From the IMG/VR virus record IMGVR_UViG_3300036444_000046, positions 1 through 38,595 of that record: a stretch of DNA of 38,595 nt; one strand, given 5' to 3'. This stretch comes from a virus. Numbering within the stretch: the stretch's first letter is position 1; each line of letters opens with the position of its first letter. A program made the position numbers and the translations under genes. The notes below the pieces were generated by a model. It was not told the origin of the DNA. It saw only the letters and a program-made list of their open reading frames with translations, and did no database searches. Below, piece by piece: positions 5,318-16,461 of the stretch.

Positions 5318-5682
5318 GGAGGGGTTTATGCGTCGAGCGATAGCCGTTGCAGCCATTGTGCTGGCTGGAACTTGTGGCGGCACGTTGGCTGAAAGTCAGC
5401 GCGACATCGTTGCCAAGAAGTATGGGGACGCCATGGCAGCGGCTGAGGCCTGTCAAACTCTCAAATTCAACAGTTCGCGCGGTTCGCTCTACATCGTGGC
5501 CCTGGGTCTCAAGTTCGACGACAAGTTTCAGGCTATCGTCAAAAAACAGCGGGCCAAGGCGTTGGACGGGTTTCGGGAACGTTCCCAGATGGCTGTCTGC
5601 CAGGCCGGACTGTTTCTGTACGGTCCGGAGGGGACTGAAGCGCCCGGATTGCTGGAAGCTGAATGAGGACATAAACCCCTCC
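5318..5682. repeat. 13-bp inverted repeats flanking a secreted-protein gene
   Basis: GGAGGGGTTTATG at 5318-5330 and its exact reverse complement at 5670-5682 bracket the plus-strand gene 5328-5666. Each arm holds a Shine-Dalgarno and an ATG. Recombination between the arms would flip the 365-bp segment and place the secreted-protein gene behind the leftward promoter with its ribosome-binding site intact. Whether inversion occurs is not known. Confidence 0.8.
5328..5666 (+). CDS. Small secreted protein, probable moron
   Basis: The 112-residue product starts MRRAIAVAAIVLAGTCGGTLA, a clear Sec signal peptide with likely cleavage after Ala near residue 21, so the mature protein is periplasmic or secreted. 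The mature part contains two cysteines about 60 residues apart (AEACQTL and MAVCQAGLF) that could form a disulphide, and a C-terminal LYGPEGTEAPGLLE stretch. I do not know its function. GGAGGGG sits five bases before the ATG at 5328. It is transcribed against all its neighbours, between the leftward promoter and the leftward operon, which is typical of a moron (an accessory gene expressed from the prophage). No own promoter is obvious. A strong hairpin follows its stop. Its start and end are bracketed by 13-bp inverted repeats. Confidence 0.75.
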   Translation: MRRAIAVAAIVLAGTCGGTLAESQRDIVAKKYGDAMAAAEACQTLKFNSSRGSLYIVALGLKFDDKFQAIVKKQRAKALDGFRERSQMAVCQAGLFLYGPEGTEAPGLLEAE

Positions 5683-5700
5683 ATCGCGGTTTCGATGGAG
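5679..5700. terminator. 8-bp stem hairpin after the secreted-protein gene
   Basis: CTCCATCG at 5679-5686 pairs perfectly with CGATGGAG at 5693-5700 around a 6-base loop. It lies 12 bp after the stop of the plus-strand gene, where a terminator is expected, but no T-run follows on either strand. It also falls at the predicted 5' end of the leftward transcript, where it could fold over the ribosome-binding site. The function is uncertain. Confidence 0.4.
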
Positions 5701-5704
5701 CGGA

Positions 5705-5732
5705 ATTAAGTACGGAAATTATTCCGTGTCAA
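5705..5732 (-). promoter_or_regulatory. Leftward promoter PL
   Basis: On the minus strand a perfect -35 box TTGACA (5732-5727) is followed after 16 bp by CTTAAT (5710-5705, four of six matches to TATAAT). Operator-like sequence fills the spacer. Transcription would start near 5698 and run into the leftward early operon, passing first through the antisense of the secreted-protein gene. Confidence 0.65.
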
Positions 5733-5756
5733 TACGATGTAAGGAAATTATTCCGT
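5712..5756. promoter_or_regulatory. Left operators OL (two sites)
   Basis: Two near-identical 16-bp sites with dyad symmetry lie at 5712-5727 (ACGGAA-ATTA-TTCCGT) and 5741-5756 (AAGGAA-ATTA-TTCCGT), 29 bp apart. The first lies inside the PL spacer and the second overlaps the repressor stop codon. The same GGAA-N4-(T/A)TCC pattern recurs three times upstream of the repressor, so these are very probably repressor-binding sites. Confidence 0.75.
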
Positions 5757-6418
5757 CACGCCGTTTCGGCGTCTGAGGCGATTCGGTGGAGTTTGAGGAT
5801 GGCTCTTGCGGGGATTTCGATCTCCGCAGGCGGATTGAGTTTGCCGAGTTTGATCGTTTCTCCGCGCGTGTTGAGGTGTCCGATCATGGCTTCGGGGCCT
5901 ACCTCGGGATCTTTGATGAACTCGACCACTACGCTGTCGCCGATGCGAGGTGGAATGCCTGGGGTTACAAAGCGGATTGCGCCCGGCTTGTGCTCCGGCC
6001 ACATCGAATCGTTGATCACAACCAGCGCATAAACGCCGGTTTGTTTCTTTAGCCCTCGGGGCAGGGGTGCATAGCCTATAGCATTGTCAAACAGTTGGAT
6101 CGCCCCGTGGTCATGTGATCCTGCTGCTGTGGCCTTAATCTCCACTTCGTCAACGTTCGCCGATGAATGAGTCGCGCTGCTGTCTTCCACATTCCGGGGC
6201 GGCTGTTGTCCATCCGGTCCCGATATCAGCCACTGTTCCGTTGTCCTTAGAGCCTTCGCGAGCCCTGTCAGGCTGTCGCCACGGGGCAGACCTGCTCCTT
6301 CCTTGAGCATCTTGCCCACAGCATCGGGCGACAAGTCGGCCGCAAGGGAAGTTGCCCTAGCGGACAAATTCAGTTCAGCCATGCGGATTCGTACGCGCAT
6401 TTGGAAATCGGTTGGCAT
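5756..6418 (-). CDS. S24/LexA-like phage repressor
   Basis: This 220-residue protein has an N-terminal helix-turn-helix (NLSARATSLAADLSPDAV, about residues 17-34) and a C-terminal S24 peptidase fold. The nucleophile Ser is about residue 138 in INDSMWPEHKPG, GDSVVVEF follows, and Lys is near 190-193 in TIKLGKLNP. An Ala-Gly pair near residues 99-100 in the linker could be the self-cleavage site. It should repress PL and PR in the lysogen and be inactivated during the SOS response. The frame extends to an ATG at 6499, but I prefer 6418: it matches repressor N-termini, leaves the operators outside the gene, and lies seven bases after a TAAAAT box, implying a leaderless mRNA. No Shine-Dalgarno precedes either start. 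Confidence 0.9.
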   Translation of the reverse strand: MPTDFQMRVRIRMAELNLSARATSLAADLSPDAVGKMLKEGAGLPRGDSLTGLAKALRTTEQWLISGPDGQQPPRNVEDSSATHSSANVDEVEIKATAAGSHDHGAIQLFDNAIGYAPLPRGLKKQTGVYALVVINDSMWPEHKPGAIRFVTPGIPPRIGDSVVVEFIKDPEVGPEAMIGHLNTRGETIKLGKLNPPAEIEIPARAILKLHRIASDAETA

Positions 6419-6422
6419 GTGA

Positions 6423-6493
6423 GGAATTTTATCCGCAAATCGGTTTTCTGTATCGCGGAAAACAATCCGTTGACGATAAGGAAAAAGTTCCGT
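6423..6493. promoter_or_regulatory. Right operators OR (three sites)
   Basis: Three matches to the operator pattern GGAA-N4-(T/A)TCC lie between the repressor and the Cro-like gene: 6423-6434 (GGAA-TTTT-ATCC), 6456-6470 (CGGAA-AACA-ATCCGT) and 6478-6493 (AAGGAA-AAAG-TTCCGT). The third lies in the spacer of the rightward promoter. The first overlaps the -10 box of the repressor's own promoter, which would allow negative autoregulation. The symmetry is less perfect than in the OL sites. Confidence 0.65.
6426..6454 (-). promoter_or_regulatory. Repressor promoter (PRM-like)
   Basis: On the minus strand TAAAAT (6431-6426) lies seven bases before the ATG at 6418, with a weak -35 match GATACA (6454-6449) 17 bp further up. 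The start of transcription would coincide with the start codon, so the repressor mRNA would be leaderless, as is the case for Lambda cI from PRM. The weak -35 box would fit a promoter needing activation. Confidence 0.45.
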
Positions 6494-6498
6494 ATCCA
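6470..6498 (+). promoter_or_regulatory. Rightward promoter PR
   Basis: TTGACG (6470-6475), a 17-bp spacer and TATCCA (6493-6498) form a good sigma-70 promoter. An operator site fills the spacer, the same arrangement as in PL. The expected transcription start, about seven bases after the -10 box, falls on the ATG at 6505, so the first gene of the rightward operon may be translated from a leaderless mRNA. Confidence 0.65.
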
Positions 6499-6504
6499 TA
6501 ATGC

Positions 6505-6807
6505 ATGAACCTGAAACAGCAGCTTGTCGTGGTGGGTGACGTCTATGCCGGCGCGGTCGGCCTTAGCCGTGCGCGTATCTCAACGATCGTTCTCAATCGC
6601 GGTGCAACACTGAGTGCAATTGCAGAAGGTCGCGCCGACGTAACAACTTCGACTTTCGAAGCTGCCATGCAGTGGTTCTCCAACAATTGGCCCGCACCTC
6701 TCCCTTGGCCTGAAGCTATCATTCGGCCTGAGCCGCAGCGGCCCGCCACCTTTGACCCTGACCACATCGCCGCCTTGCGGTTTCCTGCACAGGAGGCGGC
6801 GGAATGA
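6505..6807 (+). CDS. Cro-like regulator (putative)
   Basis: The 100-residue product is divergent from the repressor and is the first gene of the rightward operon, the position of cro in lambdoid phages. Its middle (VGLSRARISTIVLNRGATLSAIAEG, written here in part as residues about 18-42) reads like a helix-turn-helix, followed by a helix with the pattern FEAAMQWFSNNWPA that I have seen in similar small proteins next to rhizobial prophage repressors. DNA binding is inference. No Shine-Dalgarno precedes the ATG at 6505; another ATG at 6501 is out of frame. The predicted PR start of transcription falls on this ATG. The C-terminus is Pro-rich and probably disordered. Confidence 0.7.
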   Translation: MNLKQQLVVVGDVYAGAVGLSRARISTIVLNRGATLSAIAEGRADVTTSTFEAAMQWFSNNWPAPLPWPEAIIRPEPQRPATFDPDHIAALRFPAQEAAE

Positions 6808-7437: not shown

Positions 7438-8024
7438 GCGGCGGCAAATACATCTCGGCCGGCGCCACCGTCTCGCAAGACGGCAAGTATCGCTATCGGC
7501 TCTGGCGTGAGTGGCGCCTGCATCCCAAGCCCGCGCAATGGAGCATGTGGAAGGATGAAGCCGGGAAGCCAATGCTTGATGGCAAGGGCGCTCAACTGGG
7601 TGATCCGATGACCTGTGTCTTCATCATGCTCAATCCGTCCATCGCCGACAGCGAACGAGACGATCCCACAATTCGCCGCTGCGTGGCCTTTGCCAAGGCA
7701 TGGGGCTTCGATCGTCTGGAGGTTTTGAACCTCTTCGCCTATCGCGCCACCGATCCGCAGGAACTGCTGGCGTTGAATGATGTCGATGATCCGGTCGGAC
7801 CGGAAAACAGACATGCATTCTATGTTGCACTTGATCGAGGATATCCGGTCGGGAGGATCGTGTGCGCCTGGGGTGCGCACGGTTCCCATCTTGGACAGGA
7901 CGAAACGGCCCTAGGGTGGCTGGAAGACCGCAAGCGGTACGCGCTCGGCCTGACCAAGGACGCACATCCGAGGCATCCCCTGTACGTTCGTGCCGATGCG
8001 CCTCTTGTGAGGTTTCGGCCATGA
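7434..8024 (+). CDS. DUF1643 family protein
   Basis: The 196-residue protein shows the DUF1643 signature: YRYRLWREW, then FIMLNPSIADSERDDPTIRR, CVAFAKAWGFDRLEVLNLFA, and a C-terminal GRIVCAWGAHG followed by HPRHPLY. The biochemical function of the family is not established; members are common in phages and bacterial genomes and resemble small nucleic-acid-processing enzymes only loosely. It is cytosolic, with no signal or membrane segment. It overlaps both neighbours by four bases, so it belongs to the rightward early operon between regulators and the primase. Confidence 0.85.
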   Translation: MSGGKYISAGATVSQDGKYRYRLWREWRLHPKPAQWSMWKDEAGKPMLDGKGAQLGDPMTCVFIMLNPSIADSERDDPTIRRCVAFAKAWGFDRLEVLNLFAYRATDPQELLALNDVDDPVGPENRHAFYVALDRGYPVGRIVCAWGAHGSHLGQDETALGWLEDRKRYALGLTKDAHPRHPLYVRADAPLVRFRP

Positions 8025-9187
8025 TCCCCGCCGAGACCGTCGCGCAGGCGCATGCCGCTTCCATCCTGGCCACCGCCTATCTGTGCGGCTCCACGTCCAA
8101 GACCTTGCTGCGCAGGGGTAGCGAATTGAATGGTCCGTGCCCCGCCTGCGGCGGGCGTGACCGCTTCTGGCTGAACGAAGCCGGGAACGTGTTCCTGTGC
8201 CGCGCTTCGGGCGAGGGCGGTGATGCGATCGTGCTGATCCGCCACAAGCATGGATGCAGCTTCGCCGAGGCCGTCGAGATGCTGACCGGCGAGCGGCCGG
8301 TTCCGGCCGCAACGCACGCGCCTGTCTCGAAGAACGAAGACAACAAGTTCCGTGAATGGGCGCGGAAGGATGCCTGGGACATCTGGCAATCGGGAAGACC
8401 GACCGACCCGTCGCGCGGCGGTCATCTCGTCGTTCGATACCTCGCTATTCGGGGCGTCGCCATGCCGGACTGGCACATCAGGGCGCTGCGGGAGGTCGAC
8501 AATCTTGCCTATTGGCACAAGCGCGCAAGCGACCAGCACAGCACGATCATCCATCGCGGCCCTGCCATGCTGGCGGCGATCACCGGGCCGGATGGCCGGT
8601 TCATCGGCGTGCATCGCACATGGCTCGACCTGTCGCGACCGAACGGCAAGGCGGTCATCGCCGACCCCGATACCGGGGAGGTTCTTGACGCCAAGAAGGT
8701 GAAGGGCACGCAGCGCGGTGGCAGGATCGTCCTGCGCGACGGAGAACCCGGTGCCGGCCTGACGATAGGGGAGGGCATCGAGACGGTGTTTTCGTGGCGC
8801 GAGCTGCGCGAAGACACGACCTCGGCGCTGTGGTGCGGCATCAATCTCGACAATATCTCGGGCAAAGCCCTCGGCCAGATCCCGCACCCTTCACTCACCG
8901 TCAAAGACACGCTTGGCCGGGTGCGCAAGGCGAAGGTCGGCAGCCATGAGCCGGACCTAACCGATGCGCGTTGTCTGACGCTGCCGGCCGGCGTCTTTGG
9001 TCGCCTGACACTCATCGGCGACGGCGACAGCGACCGTTTCTCCACGCAGGCTGCCATGCTGCGCGCTCGCAAGCGCCACGCGCTGACCGTGCCGGATTGC
9101 CTGATCGACTGGGCCGATGACGGCCTGGACTTCAACGACATGCTGCGGCGGTTGCGTGAGCGCCGGCCGGCGAGGGCGGTGGCGTGA
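8021..9187 (+). CDS. DNA primase with zinc-finger and Toprim domains
   Basis: The 388-residue protein begins with a CHC2-type zinc-binding region: CPACGGRDRFWL and VFLCRASGEGGDAI (Cys about 40, 43 and 60). The usual fourth ligand, found in FxCxxCG, is replaced, so only three Cys are visible. The C-terminal half has Toprim-like motifs, LTIGEGIETVFSW (catalytic Glu) and LTLIGDGDSDR (Asp-x-Asp). It should make RNA primers for phage replication. I chose the ATG at 8021, which overlaps the previous stop by four bases; the longer frame from 7862 is a shadow of the preceding gene. A second primase-helicase lies at 12578-14335, so labour may be divided between them. Confidence 0.85.
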   Translation: MIPAETVAQAHAASILATAYLCGSTSKTLLRRGSELNGPCPACGGRDRFWLNEAGNVFLCRASGEGGDAIVLIRHKHGCSFAEAVEMLTGERPVPAATHAPVSKNEDNKFREWARKDAWDIWQSGRPTDPSRGGHLVVRYLAIRGVAMPDWHIRALREVDNLAYWHKRASDQHSTIIHRGPAMLAAITGPDGRFIGVHRTWLDLSRPNGKAVIADPDTGEVLDAKKVKGTQRGGRIVLRDGEPGAGLTIGEGIETVFSWRELREDTTSALWCGINLDNISGKALGQIPHPSLTVKDTLGRVRKAKVGSHEPDLTDARCLTLPAGVFGRLTLIGDGDSDRFSTQAAMLRARKRHALTVPDCLIDWADDGLDFNDMLRRLRERRPARAVA

Positions 9188-12240: not shown

Positions 12241-12581
12241 TGGCCCGTGTACACGCTTGCCTGGAGTGCGCCAAGCCGAAGCCGGAGCGCGGTGATTTCT
12301 GCTCTACCAAGTGCCGTCAGACATTCAACAACCGCCGCAAGCTGCGCGGCGCCGAGCTCTACGACCTCTATATGGCGCTGCGCTTCGAGCGCGACGCCGC
12401 CAAGCAGCTCGGCGTCTTCCAGCTGATCAACCGAATGGCCTCGAACTTCCGGCAGGAAGACAAGGCCGAGCGTGCCGGCCGCAGGTCTTGGCGCAGGACG
12501 CAGGCGGTGATCGAGGAACGGCCATATCTACGCGCCGTGGTCACTAGTGTGCGCATCGGCAGGCAGGGAGCGGCACGATGA
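12240..12581 (+). CDS. Small zinc-ribbon-like protein
   Basis: The 113-residue product has four cysteines near its N-terminus in a C-x2-C-x10-C-x3-C arrangement (ACLECAK and FCSTKCRQTF, residues about 7, 10, 21 and 25), typical of a small zinc-binding finger. The following region is helical and strongly basic (RRKLRG, RAGRRSWRR), suggesting nucleic-acid binding. I do not recognise a named family. The ATG at 12240 overlaps the methyltransferase stop by one base and its own stop overlaps the primase-helicase start by four bases, so it is part of the same early operon and could be an accessory factor for either neighbour. Confidence 0.72.
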   Translation: MARVHACLECAKPKPERGDFCSTKCRQTFNNRRKLRGAELYDLYMALRFERDAAKQLGVFQLINRMASNFRQEDKAERAGRRSWRRTQAVIEERPYLRAVVTSVRIGRQGAAR

Positions 12582-14335
12582 CCTTTCACGATCCTCATCT
12601 TGAACCCGATCCCGAGGAAGCGAAGCGCCAGCTATTGCTGGCCTGCACGCAGGAGCCGGAAACCGACATCGGCAACGGCCGGCGTCTCCGTCGCCGGTTC
12701 GGCGATCTAGCCGAAAAGCACTTGGGTGCTGCAAGCCACATCGCCATCCATGTCGCGAATATCGGCTGGCACATCTATGACGGCCGCCGCTGGAAAGAGG
12801 ATGTCGATGAATCGCTTGTGCGCAGGCTGGTGCATCGGGCGGCCGAGGCGATCCGCAAGGAAGCCGAGCTGATCGAGGCGACCGAGGAAGAGCTTGCCGT
12901 CATCAGTGCCGGCGAGGTGGCATCGGAAGCGCTGGAAAGCTTCCTGTCCGGGGCCAAGAAAAAGAAGCTGCCGACGCCGGATGATCAGCGTTTCATCAAG
13001 GACCAGCAGGAGGCGATCAAGGCGGCCGAGGCCATCTACGGCCTGATCGAAGATCGCCGGTCAGCCAGGCGCCGCCACGCGAAGTCGACTGCAGGCTCTT
13101 CCAAGCTGACCAACATGATGGCCGAGGCGCAGCCTTATGTGTCCAGGCTGGTCAGCGACCTGAACCCCGATCCCCTTTTGGTGAACTGCCTTTCCGGCAC
13201 CATCGCATTCAACCAGGTCGAGGACGAGGAAAGCGACCCGGAAGATCCCCGATATGTCTGGAAGGCCGAGCTGCGCGAGCATCGGCAGGCGGACATGATC
13301 ACCAAGCTGATCGAAGTCGAGTGGTTGCCGGATGTGAAGCACGAGACGCCGGCATTCACCACCTTCCTGCACCAGGTCCAGCCCGATCCCGAAATCCGGC
13401 AGTTCCTGAAACGCTTCGCCGGCTACCTGTTGACCGGCCTGACCGTCGAACAGGTGATGCTGTTCTTCTACGGTGCCGGCCGCAACGGCAAGTCGACCTA
13501 CCTCGACCTGCTCTGCTTCATCCTCGGCGACTATGCCGTCACGCTGTCGATCGAAAGCTTCTCGGGCGACAACAAGCGCGGCGGCGGCGAGGCGACGCCG
13601 GACCTTGCACGCCTGCCCGGCGCGCGTCTCGTCTCAGCTTCGGAACCGGAAGCAAACGTCAAGCTGAAGGATGCACTGATCAAGACGCTGACCGGCGGCG
13701 AGAAGATCCCCGTCCGCCGCCTGCACAAGGATTTCTTCGAGGTCGATCCGCACTTCAAGATCATCCTGTCGGGCAACCACAAGCCGCGCGTCGACGACGA
13801 TTCGGACGGCATCTGGCGGCGCCTGCTGCTGGTGCCGTGGATGATCCAGATCGACAAGGCCAAGGTCGACAAGGCGCTGTCTTCCAAGCTGCGCAAGGAA
13901 GCGGTGGGCGTCTTCGCCTGGATGGTAGAGGGCGCGCTGGAATACCTGAATTGCGGGCTGGAGACGCCCAAGCAGGTGACGGCCGCCAGCGAGGAATACC
14001 GGCAGGAAAGCGACGGCATCGGCACGTTCATCCGCATCGCCTGCGTGGTGTCCGGCGACACCAACGACAAGGAAGAACCGCTGGACCTCTACATGGCGTT
14101 CGAGAAGTTCGCTGACCGCGAAGGTGTGTTCAAGGTCACGCGCTCAACTTTCGAGAAGCGGTTCTCCAAGGCGACCGAACGTGCCTTCGAGGGACCGGAC
14201 GGCCAGATGCGGCAATTCAAGCGGCACCGGTCGAACGGGCGCACCTACTATCAGGGGATCAAGCTTCTTCCCGATTGGCGCCCCGGCACCGGGGACAGTT
14301 CGCACCATCCTCATGAAGAGGATGAGCGCTCGTGA
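12578..14335 (+). CDS. P4-type primase-helicase (D5-like, SF3)
   Basis: This 585-residue protein is a phage/plasmid primase of the P4 C-terminal type. The centre holds an SF3 helicase: Walker A GAGRNGKST (about residues 299-307), Walker B-like LARLPGARLVSASEPE, motif C-like FKIILSGNHKPRV, and DGIWRRLLLVPW. The C-terminus (STFEKRFSKATERAF, about 520-535) is a likely winged-helix DNA-binding domain as in D5/P4-alpha proteins, which recognise origin repeats. The N-terminal third is charged and shows no obvious catalytic primase motif. It should unwind the phage origin. A 9-bp repeat array that could be its target lies about 0.8 kb downstream (15108-15412). Confidence 0.9.
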   Translation: MTFHDPHLEPDPEEAKRQLLLACTQEPETDIGNGRRLRRRFGDLAEKHLGAASHIAIHVANIGWHIYDGRRWKEDVDESLVRRLVHRAAEAIRKEAELIEATEEELAVISAGEVASEALESFLSGAKKKKLPTPDDQRFIKDQQEAIKAAEAIYGLIEDRRSARRRHAKSTAGSSKLTNMMAEAQPYVSRLVSDLNPDPLLVNCLSGTIAFNQVEDEESDPEDPRYVWKAELREHRQADMITKLIEVEWLPDVKHETPAFTTFLHQVQPDPEIRQFLKRFAGYLLTGLTVEQVMLFFYGAGRNGKSTYLDLLCFILGDYAVTLSIESFSGDNKRGGGEATPDLARLPGARLVSASEPEANVKLKDALIKTLTGGEKIPVRRLHKDFFEVDPHFKIILSGNHKPRVDDDSDGIWRRLLLVPWMIQIDKAKVDKALSSKLRKEAVGVFAWMVEGALEYLNCGLETPKQVTAASEEYRQESDGIGTFIRIACVVSGDTNDKEEPLDLYMAFEKFADREGVFKVTRSTFEKRFSKATERAFEGPDGQMRQFKRHRSNGRTYYQGIKLLPDWRPGTGDSSHHPHEEDERS

Positions 14336-15051
14336 GGTTACTCCCGCTCCCTCTTGATCTGGCCGAGCCAATCACTCCGGTCACAGCAAAGCCCCTTCGC
14401 ATTCTCATCGGTTGCGAGACCAGCGGCATCGCCAGACGCGCTTTCGCTGATCGGGGTCATGACGTCTGGTCATGTGACATCGAGCCGGCGGAAGACGGAA
14501 GCAACCGGCACATCATCTGCGATATTCGTGGCGGCATCCTGAACGAAGGATGGGATCTGCTGGCGGTGATGCATCCACCATGCACCAGGCTTTGCCGGTC
14601 AGGCCGCCGATGGATGAGTGGTCCCGGCCTATGGACGCCCCCGAAAAAGCTTCCTGTTGGCCGCTCATGGGAAAGCATGAAAGCGGAATTCGAGTTGGGT
14701 GTGTCGATCTTTTCCGCGTGCTGGCAAGCACCGATCGAGCGGGTAGCGATCGAAAACCCCGAAATGAACGACCTCGCTCGCGACCGGATGCCGGACGATC
14801 TGCCGGCCGCGCATATGGTCCAGCCGTACTGGTTCGGCCATCCTGAATTCAAGGCTACCGGTTGGTATCTGCGCAACCTGCCGCAACTCCAGCCAACCGA
14901 CATGCTGGAAAAGCCGGAACGCGACACAGATGAGTGGCGGCGGTGGAACCGCGTGCATCGCATGTCGCCTGGTCCTGAACGCGCCCGTCTGCGCAGTCGG
15001 TCCTATCCTGGAATGATGGCCGCGGCTGCAGTCCAGTGGGGTGGCGCCTAG
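14332..15051 (+). CDS. C5-cytosine-methyltransferase-like protein
   Basis: The 239-residue product has Rossmann-type methyltransferase motifs in C5-methyltransferase order: motif I LRILIGCETSGIARRAF then WSCDIEP, motif IV MHPPCTRLC with the Pro-Cys catalytic pair, and motif VI as IENP instead of the usual ENV. QPYWFGHPEFKATGWYLRNL follows. It is shorter than classical enzymes, with little room for a target-recognition domain, so its DNA specificity or even activity is unsure. It starts with GTG at 14332, overlapping the primase-helicase stop (GTGA). Immediately after its stop lies a remnant of a second, dcm-like gene. Confidence 0.75.
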   Translation: MRLLPLPLDLAEPITPVTAKPLRILIGCETSGIARRAFADRGHDVWSCDIEPAEDGSNRHIICDIRGGILNEGWDLLAVMHPPCTRLCRSGRRWMSGPGLWTPPKKLPVGRSWESMKAEFELGVSIFSACWQAPIERVAIENPEMNDLARDRMPDDLPAAHMVQPYWFGHPEFKATGWYLRNLPQLQPTDMLEKPERDTDEWRRWNRVHRMSPGPERARLRSRSYPGMMAAAAVQWGGA

Positions 15052-15216
15052 ATGCTCAAGTACGGCTCCGTCTGTTCCGGCATCGAGGCCGCTACCGAGG
15101 CCGGTTTATCGGCACTGTTTTGCAGGGCAGTAAGTGCCGATATGGCTTACCCGGTGCAGGATGTGCACTTCAAAAGGGTTCGGGAAATCAATGGGTTGTG
15201 CAGCAAGTGCCGATAG
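15052..15216 (+). pseudogene. Remnant of a dcm-like C5-methyltransferase
   Basis: The frame from the ATG at 15052 begins MLKYGSVCSGIEAATEA, the characteristic N-terminus (motif I) of phage and bacterial C5-cytosine methyltransferases. After about 16 codons the similarity ends and the frame closes at TAG 15214-15216 after only 54 residues. The break coincides with the first of a series of 9-bp repeats (from 15108), so the rest of the gene seems to have been replaced or deleted. The ATG follows directly on the stop of the preceding gene. It may still be translated as a short peptide, but no function is expected. Confidence 0.7.
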
Positions 15217-15412
15217 TGCCGGTAGCTGCGCCCCACATGTGCGCGCGATGTGAATAGGGGATAGGGGACTGGTTGCCTTCCTATGCGTTACCAGTGGTCA
15301 TCAGCACTATCGGCACTTGCGGCCCTATCCCTTCTTTTTTGCTTGCGAAAGCAAGGAGTTAAACTGTGAAAGGACAGTGCAGATGTTGAAAAACAGTGCA
15401 GATAGTGCAGAA
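15108..15412. repeat. Iteron-like array: nine copies of AGTGCNGAT (candidate origin)
   Basis: The 9-bp unit AGTGC(C/A/T)G(A/G)T occurs six times on the plus strand (15133, 15206, 15215, 15376, 15395, 15404) and three times on the minus strand (15108-15116, 15300-15308, 15309-15317). Several copies are tandem pairs. Two larger inverted repeats result: a 10-bp pair at 15107-15116/15133-15142 and a 17-bp perfect pair at 15203-15219/15304-15320. A further 9-bp inverted repeat, GGGATAGGG (15258-15266) and CCCTATCCC (15323-15331), a T-rich stretch and a GAAA-loop hairpin near 15340 lie between. It sits downstream of the P4-type primase-helicase and is a candidate replication origin or multi-site operator. 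Confidence 0.6.
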
Positions 15413-16384
15413 ATGGGCTTCGTGAGGAGCAAATTGCCGTTTCTGCCGCGCAATGCGGCGGGCAAACGCTATGGACCAGTCGAGGAGGTGATTGCCTGGG
15501 CGTGGCGGGAAGAGCTGCCGAAGACCGGACCACACCTGAACGGGCCAATGCCCTACGGCTCCAGTTGGGCAAAGACCGACCGCTTTGCCGAATACCTCAC
15601 GCTCGTCGACAGCTACGGCATCGTTCCCGATTTCTCGGCAGGAGACTGGCCGCACCATGACGCGGTGCTGATCGGTGGCGCGGTCATGGCGCTGGATGAA
15701 CTGGTGCTAGAGCTTCCAGAGGATTGGCGACCCGCTCCGGAACTGGATGGCTTTGGCGGTCTTGGTGCCAAGGCCGTAGCCGACGCGTGGCGCAAGATGA
15801 CGATCGAGCGCGAAGGCGGCATGATGGCGCTGCGGCTCAAGCCTTCTGAACTGATCATCCGCCGTGCGATCATGGGATACGACACCGATGCCATGAAGAT
15901 CGACGATGTCGAAAAGCGGTATGAGGCGTTTGGCAGTGGACAGGATAAGTGGTTCGTCCGCAGGCATCAGACCGTTCTCGACGGCATCAATGCCGATGGA
16001 ACCGAGCGGACGAAGATCGTCAACGTCGAGGTGGACGGATGGAGCAGCAGAACGCGCCGGCCTCTTCCTGGCGCCTACCGCAAACCCTACCTCGATCCCG
16101 ATCCGGTTACGGCGATCATCGCTCGCGCCGAGCATGAAATCTGGCTATCGGCGCTATCTCTGGTGGTCGATGATATCGCGCGGCAACTTAGCGATGTGGT
16201 GATGTTGTCAACTGCCGTACCCGCAGCGCCATGGTTGGTCGAGAACAAGACGCGCTCGCTTCCCGATCTGGTGACGGCTGCGCGACTGGAGCAGGAAGAG
16301 CATGAGCGCCACGAAGCCGCTCTTGCCGCGCGCTTTCCAAGATGGTTTCGGCGGCTGCAAAATATCTCTCCAGCACCAGCTTGA
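15383..16384 (+). CDS. Hypothetical protein (333 aa), last early gene
   Basis: I do not recognise this 333-residue protein. It is largely helical, with MALDELVLELPEDWRP, DVEKRYEAFGSG and WFVRRHQTVLDGI among its clearer segments, and a basic C-terminus (AARFPRWFRRLQ). No membrane segment, signal peptide or cysteine cluster is present. I placed the start at the ATG at 15383, where AAAGGA lies eight bases upstream; ATG 15413 is an alternative, and the frame above 15383 runs through the repeat array. The first codons themselves contain copies of the 9-bp repeat. It precedes the early/late terminator, the place of an antiterminator in lambdoid phages, but nothing in its sequence shows that role. 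Confidence 0.75.
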   Translation: MLKNSADSAEMGFVRSKLPFLPRNAAGKRYGPVEEVIAWAWREELPKTGPHLNGPMPYGSSWAKTDRFAEYLTLVDSYGIVPDFSAGDWPHHDAVLIGGAVMALDELVLELPEDWRPAPELDGFGGLGAKAVADAWRKMTIEREGGMMALRLKPSELIIRRAIMGYDTDAMKIDDVEKRYEAFGSGQDKWFVRRHQTVLDGINADGTERTKIVNVEVDGWSSRTRRPLPGAYRKPYLDPDPVTAIIARAEHEIWLSALSLVVDDIARQLSDVVMLSTAVPAAPWLVENKTRSLPDLVTAARLEQEEHERHEAALAARFPRWFRRLQNISPAPA

Positions 16385-16433: not shown

Positions 16434-16461
16434 ACCCGCTTCGGCAACGAGGCGGGTTTTT
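16434..16461 (+). terminator. Rho-independent terminator at the early/late boundary
   Basis: ACCCGC at 16434-16439 pairs with GCGGGT at 16452-16457 around a 12-base loop, and a run of five T (16457-16461) follows directly. It lies 50 bp after the last early gene and 20 bp before the gpZ-like gene, whose AGGAGG ribosome-binding site comes right after the T-run. Late transcription must either read through it or start beyond it. Confidence 0.75.

Follow-up and report, generated by a model that had tools for sequence, protein, structure and literature searches.

What is the function of a dense array of short repeats lying between a helicase gene and the terminase genes of a temperate phage? The array (15108-15412) lies in the virus record IMGVR_UViG_3300036444_000046, whose nearest relatives are Mesorhizobium prophages, and the whole 38,595-nucleotide stretch analysed is referred to here as the window. 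A preliminary description, made from the letters alone, had proposed an iteron-bearing replication origin, with regulation of the downstream gene as the alternative. The origin reading is upheld here as the best explanation, by the arrays found at related loci and by the co-variation of the repeat unit with the winged helix of the helicase, and comparative sequence evidence indicates that 15108-15412 is very probably the replication origin of this phage.

The repeat unit is AGTGCNGAT, a 9-bp sequence present in nine exact copies in the window (1.29 expected), a count reached in none of 100 shuffles. Seven of the nine fall inside 15108-15403, on the + strand at 15133, 15206, 15376 and 15395 and on the - strand at 15108, 15300 and 15309, and the remaining two are isolated, at 13746 and 33435. 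The Poisson probability of at least seven exact copies per 305 bp is ~2e-18, or ~3e-16 over all positions, which excludes chance as the source of the array. Two + strand copies with one mismatch, AGTGCCGGT at 15215 and AGTGCAGAA at 15404, bring the array to the six direct and three inverted copies originally described, all of which were found in place. A degenerate inverted copy, AGTGCACAT (15161-15169, - strand), had been overlooked and is probably a tenth, since relatives carry a copy at the same offset. The array thus consists of an outer inverted copy (15108-15116, - strand) and an outer direct copy (15133-15141, + strand), both exact, a head-to-tail direct pair AGTGCCGAT AGTGCCGGT (15206-15223, + strand), a head-to-tail inverted pair (15300-15317, - strand), and three direct copies over the start of the next gene (15376-15412, + strand). 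The 17-bp perfect inverted repeat of the preliminary description (15203-15219 with 15304-15320) and its second inverted repeat, GGGATAGGG (15258-15266) with CCCTATCCC (15324-15332), were both located. The region is mostly non-coding, as had been stated, and 15052-15382 contains only a 54-bp methyltransferase remnant. In 15052-15111 a C5 cytosine methyltransferase begins (MLKYGSVCSGIEAATEAG) and is broken off at the first iteron; the same N-terminus belongs to a longer gene between the helicase gene and the array in four relatives (L013, L014, L026 and L028).

The genes around the array run in the order S24 repressor, CII-like activator, DUF7146/Toprim primase, DEAD-type helicase, N6 methyltransferase, D5-like helicase, DNA methyltransferase phrog_757, array, phrog_9306 gene, neck protein, and small and large terminase. 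The D5-like helicase (12578-14335, + strand; PF08706 and PF19263, hence an SF3/D5-type AAA+ helicase) is the candidate initiator, with a winged helix at residues ~478-563 that includes wing residues 549 and 551. This 585-residue protein had been called a primase-helicase, but it corresponds to the helicase part only of phage primase-helicases (phrog_1156 positions 355-832 of 855) and has no primase domain, the primase being encoded by a separate gene (7862-9187, + strand; Zn ribbon, DUF7146 and Toprim). The array starts 773 bp past the helicase stop codon, with one accessory methyltransferase gene between them (phrog_757, 14332-15051, + strand), and its final copies reach into the beginning of the phrog_9306 gene (15383-16384, + strand; ATG at 15383 or 15413), which serves as a marker of the locus and is dispensable for the array. 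The phrog_9306 protein is present in 40 of the 396 host-family genomes searched; it has no Pfam domain, and a Foldseek search with a fair-quality AlphaFold model gave no fold match.

Relatives were gathered via phrog_9306 and D5, giving 68 distinct D5 loci, and arrays were detected de novo by finding, next to each locus, the 9-mer repeated most often, with shuffled sequence for comparison. A strong array lies near the helicase gene in 61 of the 68 loci (mean score 6.0, compared with 2.5 for shuffled sequence), and these 61 arrays employ 42 different units. In two of the other seven loci (L084 and L091) the array lies immediately 3' of D5, while the remaining five (L003, L078, L108, L109 and L122) have no array above shuffles. 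In L003 a weak array, below the shuffle criterion, can be seen by eye. Loss of the repeats from relatives that keep the helicase had been named in advance as evidence against an origin; instead, the repeats are retained in these 61 loci and in the two beside D5. The non-coding iterons are 3' of the helicase gene, with one gene between in the window and directly after D5 in many relatives, and among relatives the gap between D5 and the array reaches ~2.7 kb.

The position of the copies is kept while the unit changes. Relative to phrog_9306, the shared layout in many relatives consists of outer copies at ~-280 to -310, a direct pair near -210/-200, an inverted pair near -115/-105, and further copies at ~-37/-18. 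The unit class of the window, with nine-base spacing, includes AGGGACGCT, AGGACAGCA, GGTGCCGAT, AGTGCCGAT and others, and a second class with 10-11 base spacing includes GCGAGGGTT, GCGACAGTT and others. In most relatives a second element, AAAGGGATAGGGAAATCA, immediately precedes the direct pair, and a TTTCCCTTCTCCCC-like element is situated further upstream (15170-15200 and L003-L014); in the window, each of the two is eroded or absent.

The change in unit is accompanied by change in the helicase. Controlling for the D5 N-terminus in 36 phages of the window's unit class, unit distance correlates with distance in the D5 C-terminal domain (partial Mantel r 0.44, p 0.0002) and is unrelated to phrog_9306 (r 0.01). 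Every D5 and phrog_9306 residue was then compared with every unit base on the D5 N-terminal tree, using units registered by hand and a split into C and non-C picked after looking. All 36 phages have Arg at D5 residue 551 where the unit has C at base 5, and Lys where it has another base, with five parallel switches in both; of the 34,480 residue-base pairs this one ranks first, and not one of 1000 simulated traits did equally well. This binary scan was the third tried and is the one relied upon, a partial-Mantel scan of single columns being confounded by clades and a per-letter co-change scan being uninformative for base 5. About ten out-of-sample loci fit the rule of Lys with non-C, and in one more (L232) no array was picked out; these loci add little weight, because the single new Arg case comes from a close relative of L026. 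In an AlphaFold model, residue 551 lies in the first wing strand (548-552) of a winged helix with its recognition helix at 522-534, and Foldseek matches the protein to the SaPI5 primase-helicase (7ola, E 1.8e-14) and to viral primase-helicases. Base 5 is probably read by wing residue 551, and the co-change of the unit with one enzyme residue suggests how the helicase and its start site might recognize each other. It is more tentatively proposed, as a possibility a little short of probable, that a simple, evolving code ties SF3 initiator helicases to their origins, base 5 of each iteron being read by the Arg or Lys at residue 551, and that this residue and all the copies of an array have repeatedly changed in concert, giving rise within one phage group to dozens of origin classes that are incompatible with one another.

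The array might instead be an operator, through which a regulator such as the phrog_9306 protein would govern the gene that follows it together with the late operon. The copies at ~-37 and -18 do overlap the phrog_9306 start region in many phages, and in many loci other genes separate D5 from the array, which stays next to phrog_9306. However, arrays are present in D5 loci without phrog_9306 (RcapNL, Pan4, Nsp-JY21, L223, L224, L226, L227 and L229) and are absent from phrog_9306 loci having a lambda-O-type wHTH or Toprim-DnaB initiator (L036, L040, L167, L168 and L171), and on these grounds the phrog_9306 protein is also rejected as the reader. Loci combining phrog_9306 with a DUF5906-type helicase (L163, L169, L170 and L182) have dense arrays of other units straight after the helicase gene, further units again occur in the arrays of those with an unassigned AAA-like helicase (L174, L175 and L176), and three loci (L091, L084 and L182) have their array next to the helicase and well separated from phrog_9306. 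The arrays therefore follow helicase type and not the downstream phrog_9306 gene, in keeping with the lack of correlation between unit and phrog_9306 distances. An operator of the immunity repressor was also considered and rejected, since the S24 repressor (5400-6700) has no copy of the unit nearby. An operator is thus an unlikely main function, although the overlap of array copies with the phrog_9306 start, together with their 773-bp separation from D5, makes regulation of phrog_9306 possible as a side effect, and to that extent the regulator alternative of the preliminary description survives. One further phrog_9306 locus, with an unclassified small protein upstream (L172), has no array, and four loci (L101, L173, L188 and L035) have an array and no recognized helicase in the stretch covered; the first three of these resemble prophage remnants and the last is a short contig.

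Iterated sites and inverted repeats would also suit a packaging site (cosB or pac) recognized by the small terminase, which is encoded ~1.7 kb downstream, and in Rhodobacter phage RcapNL the array following D5 (L113:5653-5973) abuts the annotated cohesive end. A site of this kind should co-vary with the small terminase, but L026 shares the array type of L024 and L025 despite an unrelated terminase, 25% identical to that of the window, and arrays track helicase type. Packaging is rejected because the terminase swap leaves the array unchanged, and it is considered very improbable; the RcapNL arrangement suggests that origin and cos may overlap. A role as a secondary or replication-control element, with the main origin elsewhere, is the least probable of the readings considered. 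Phage P4 provides a precedent in having two iteron regions, ori and crr, and sequence by itself does not assign a function; against this, the remaining exact matches are the lone sites at 13746 and 33435, and so the window has no second array with AGTGCNGAT. Cumulative GC skew across the window has no clear turning point at the array.

Taking the array as the origin, we build on what is established here, namely the array itself, the layout it has in relatives, its linkage with the helicase and the co-variation of unit and helicase, and infer binding, hexamer loading, melting and replication from the precedents of SaPIs, PICIs and SCCmec. The D5-like SF3 helicase (12578-14335) would recognize each 9-bp iteron via its C-terminal winged helix, with base 5 probably contacted by wing residue 551, and the direct and inverted iteron pairs would position two opposed helicase hexamers. 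An unstable stretch at ~15335-15400 would then open, allowing the separate primase (7862-9187) and host polymerase to begin synthesis. This candidate DNA unwinding element is the least stable stretch of the region, its least stable 51 bp being centred at 15378 and belonging to the least stable 0.1% of the window, and it has the inverted pair on one side and the last direct copies on the other, so that iteron sets flank an AT-rich potential melting site. Among 47 relatives, the mean stability minimum occupies the same interval, near -70 from phrog_9306. Within the unstable stretch, 15339-15354 (TTGCTTGCGAAAGCAA) can form a 6-bp stem with a GCGA loop, and is retained in most Mesorhizobium relatives.

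Several known systems resemble this arrangement. The P4 alpha protein combines a helicase with its own primase domain and a C-terminal winged-helix origin-binding domain, and acts with short iterons at the origin. The P4-type analogy drawn in the preliminary description holds for the winged helix and the iterons but fails for the primase, which is unfused in the window, and the window also lacks a second iteron region corresponding to crr; among relatives of solved structure, the SaPI5 primase-helicase is nearer. In SaPIs, the C-terminal domain of the Rep helicase recognizes iterons directly downstream of the helicase gene (PMC7581432). PICI origins consist of two iteron sets around an AT-rich region, their sequences differing from element to element, and a plasmid could be maintained by a PICI pri-rep-ori fragment (PMC6092414). 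The window shares with these elements a D5/SF3-type self-loading helicase, an array 3' of its gene, iteron sets flanking an AT-rich stretch, and iteron sequences that vary among elements, while C-terminal iteron recognition is suggested here by the co-variation. It differs in being a full-size phage with capsid and terminase genes, and in having a separate Toprim primase gene, a methyltransferase gene between helicase and array, and copies extending into the next gene. The array has the sequence features that characterize Rep-iteron origins of the SaPI/PICI type.

The isolated C-terminal domain of the SCCmec protein Cch2 binds direct repeats (PMC7581432). Cch2 is likewise a D5-type helicase with direct repeats downstream of its gene, but has just three 5-nt iterons and belongs to a chromosomal cassette. 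A 302-bp non-coding origin element is described for phage Sfi21 in an account citing Foley 1998 (PMC6356513), and in Lactobacillus phage phiadh (NC_000896) the annotated rep_origin lies directly after a D5-type primase-helicase gene and contains the repeated 9-mer AACTATACA. Both resemble the window in having a non-coding origin in the replication module; they differ in their Gram-positive hosts and their units, and in phiadh the primase and helicase are fused. A lambda O-type arrangement does not apply, as the array lies outside the helicase gene, and the window genes scanned include no O-type initiator, the only hits being weak sub-threshold HTH matches of TerS.

Origins of this kind are already known from SaPI/PICI Rep-iteron systems and from Sfi21 and phiadh, and what is new is their spread in rhizobial phages, the turnover of units, and one candidate recognition residue. 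The 68 distinct D5 loci with their 42 units constitute a large natural set of matched initiator and origin pairs, through which the origin specificity of self-loading D5/SF3 helicases becomes testable residue by residue. The distinct units also predict which co-resident prophages can use, or block, each other's replication.

In the phages examined, the phrog_9306 gene is always ahead of the late genes. Directly 3' of it in the window, ahead of the neck and terminase genes, is a sequence resembling an intrinsic terminator (16435-16461, CCCGC...GCGGGTTTTT), an arrangement reminiscent of Q and its terminator.
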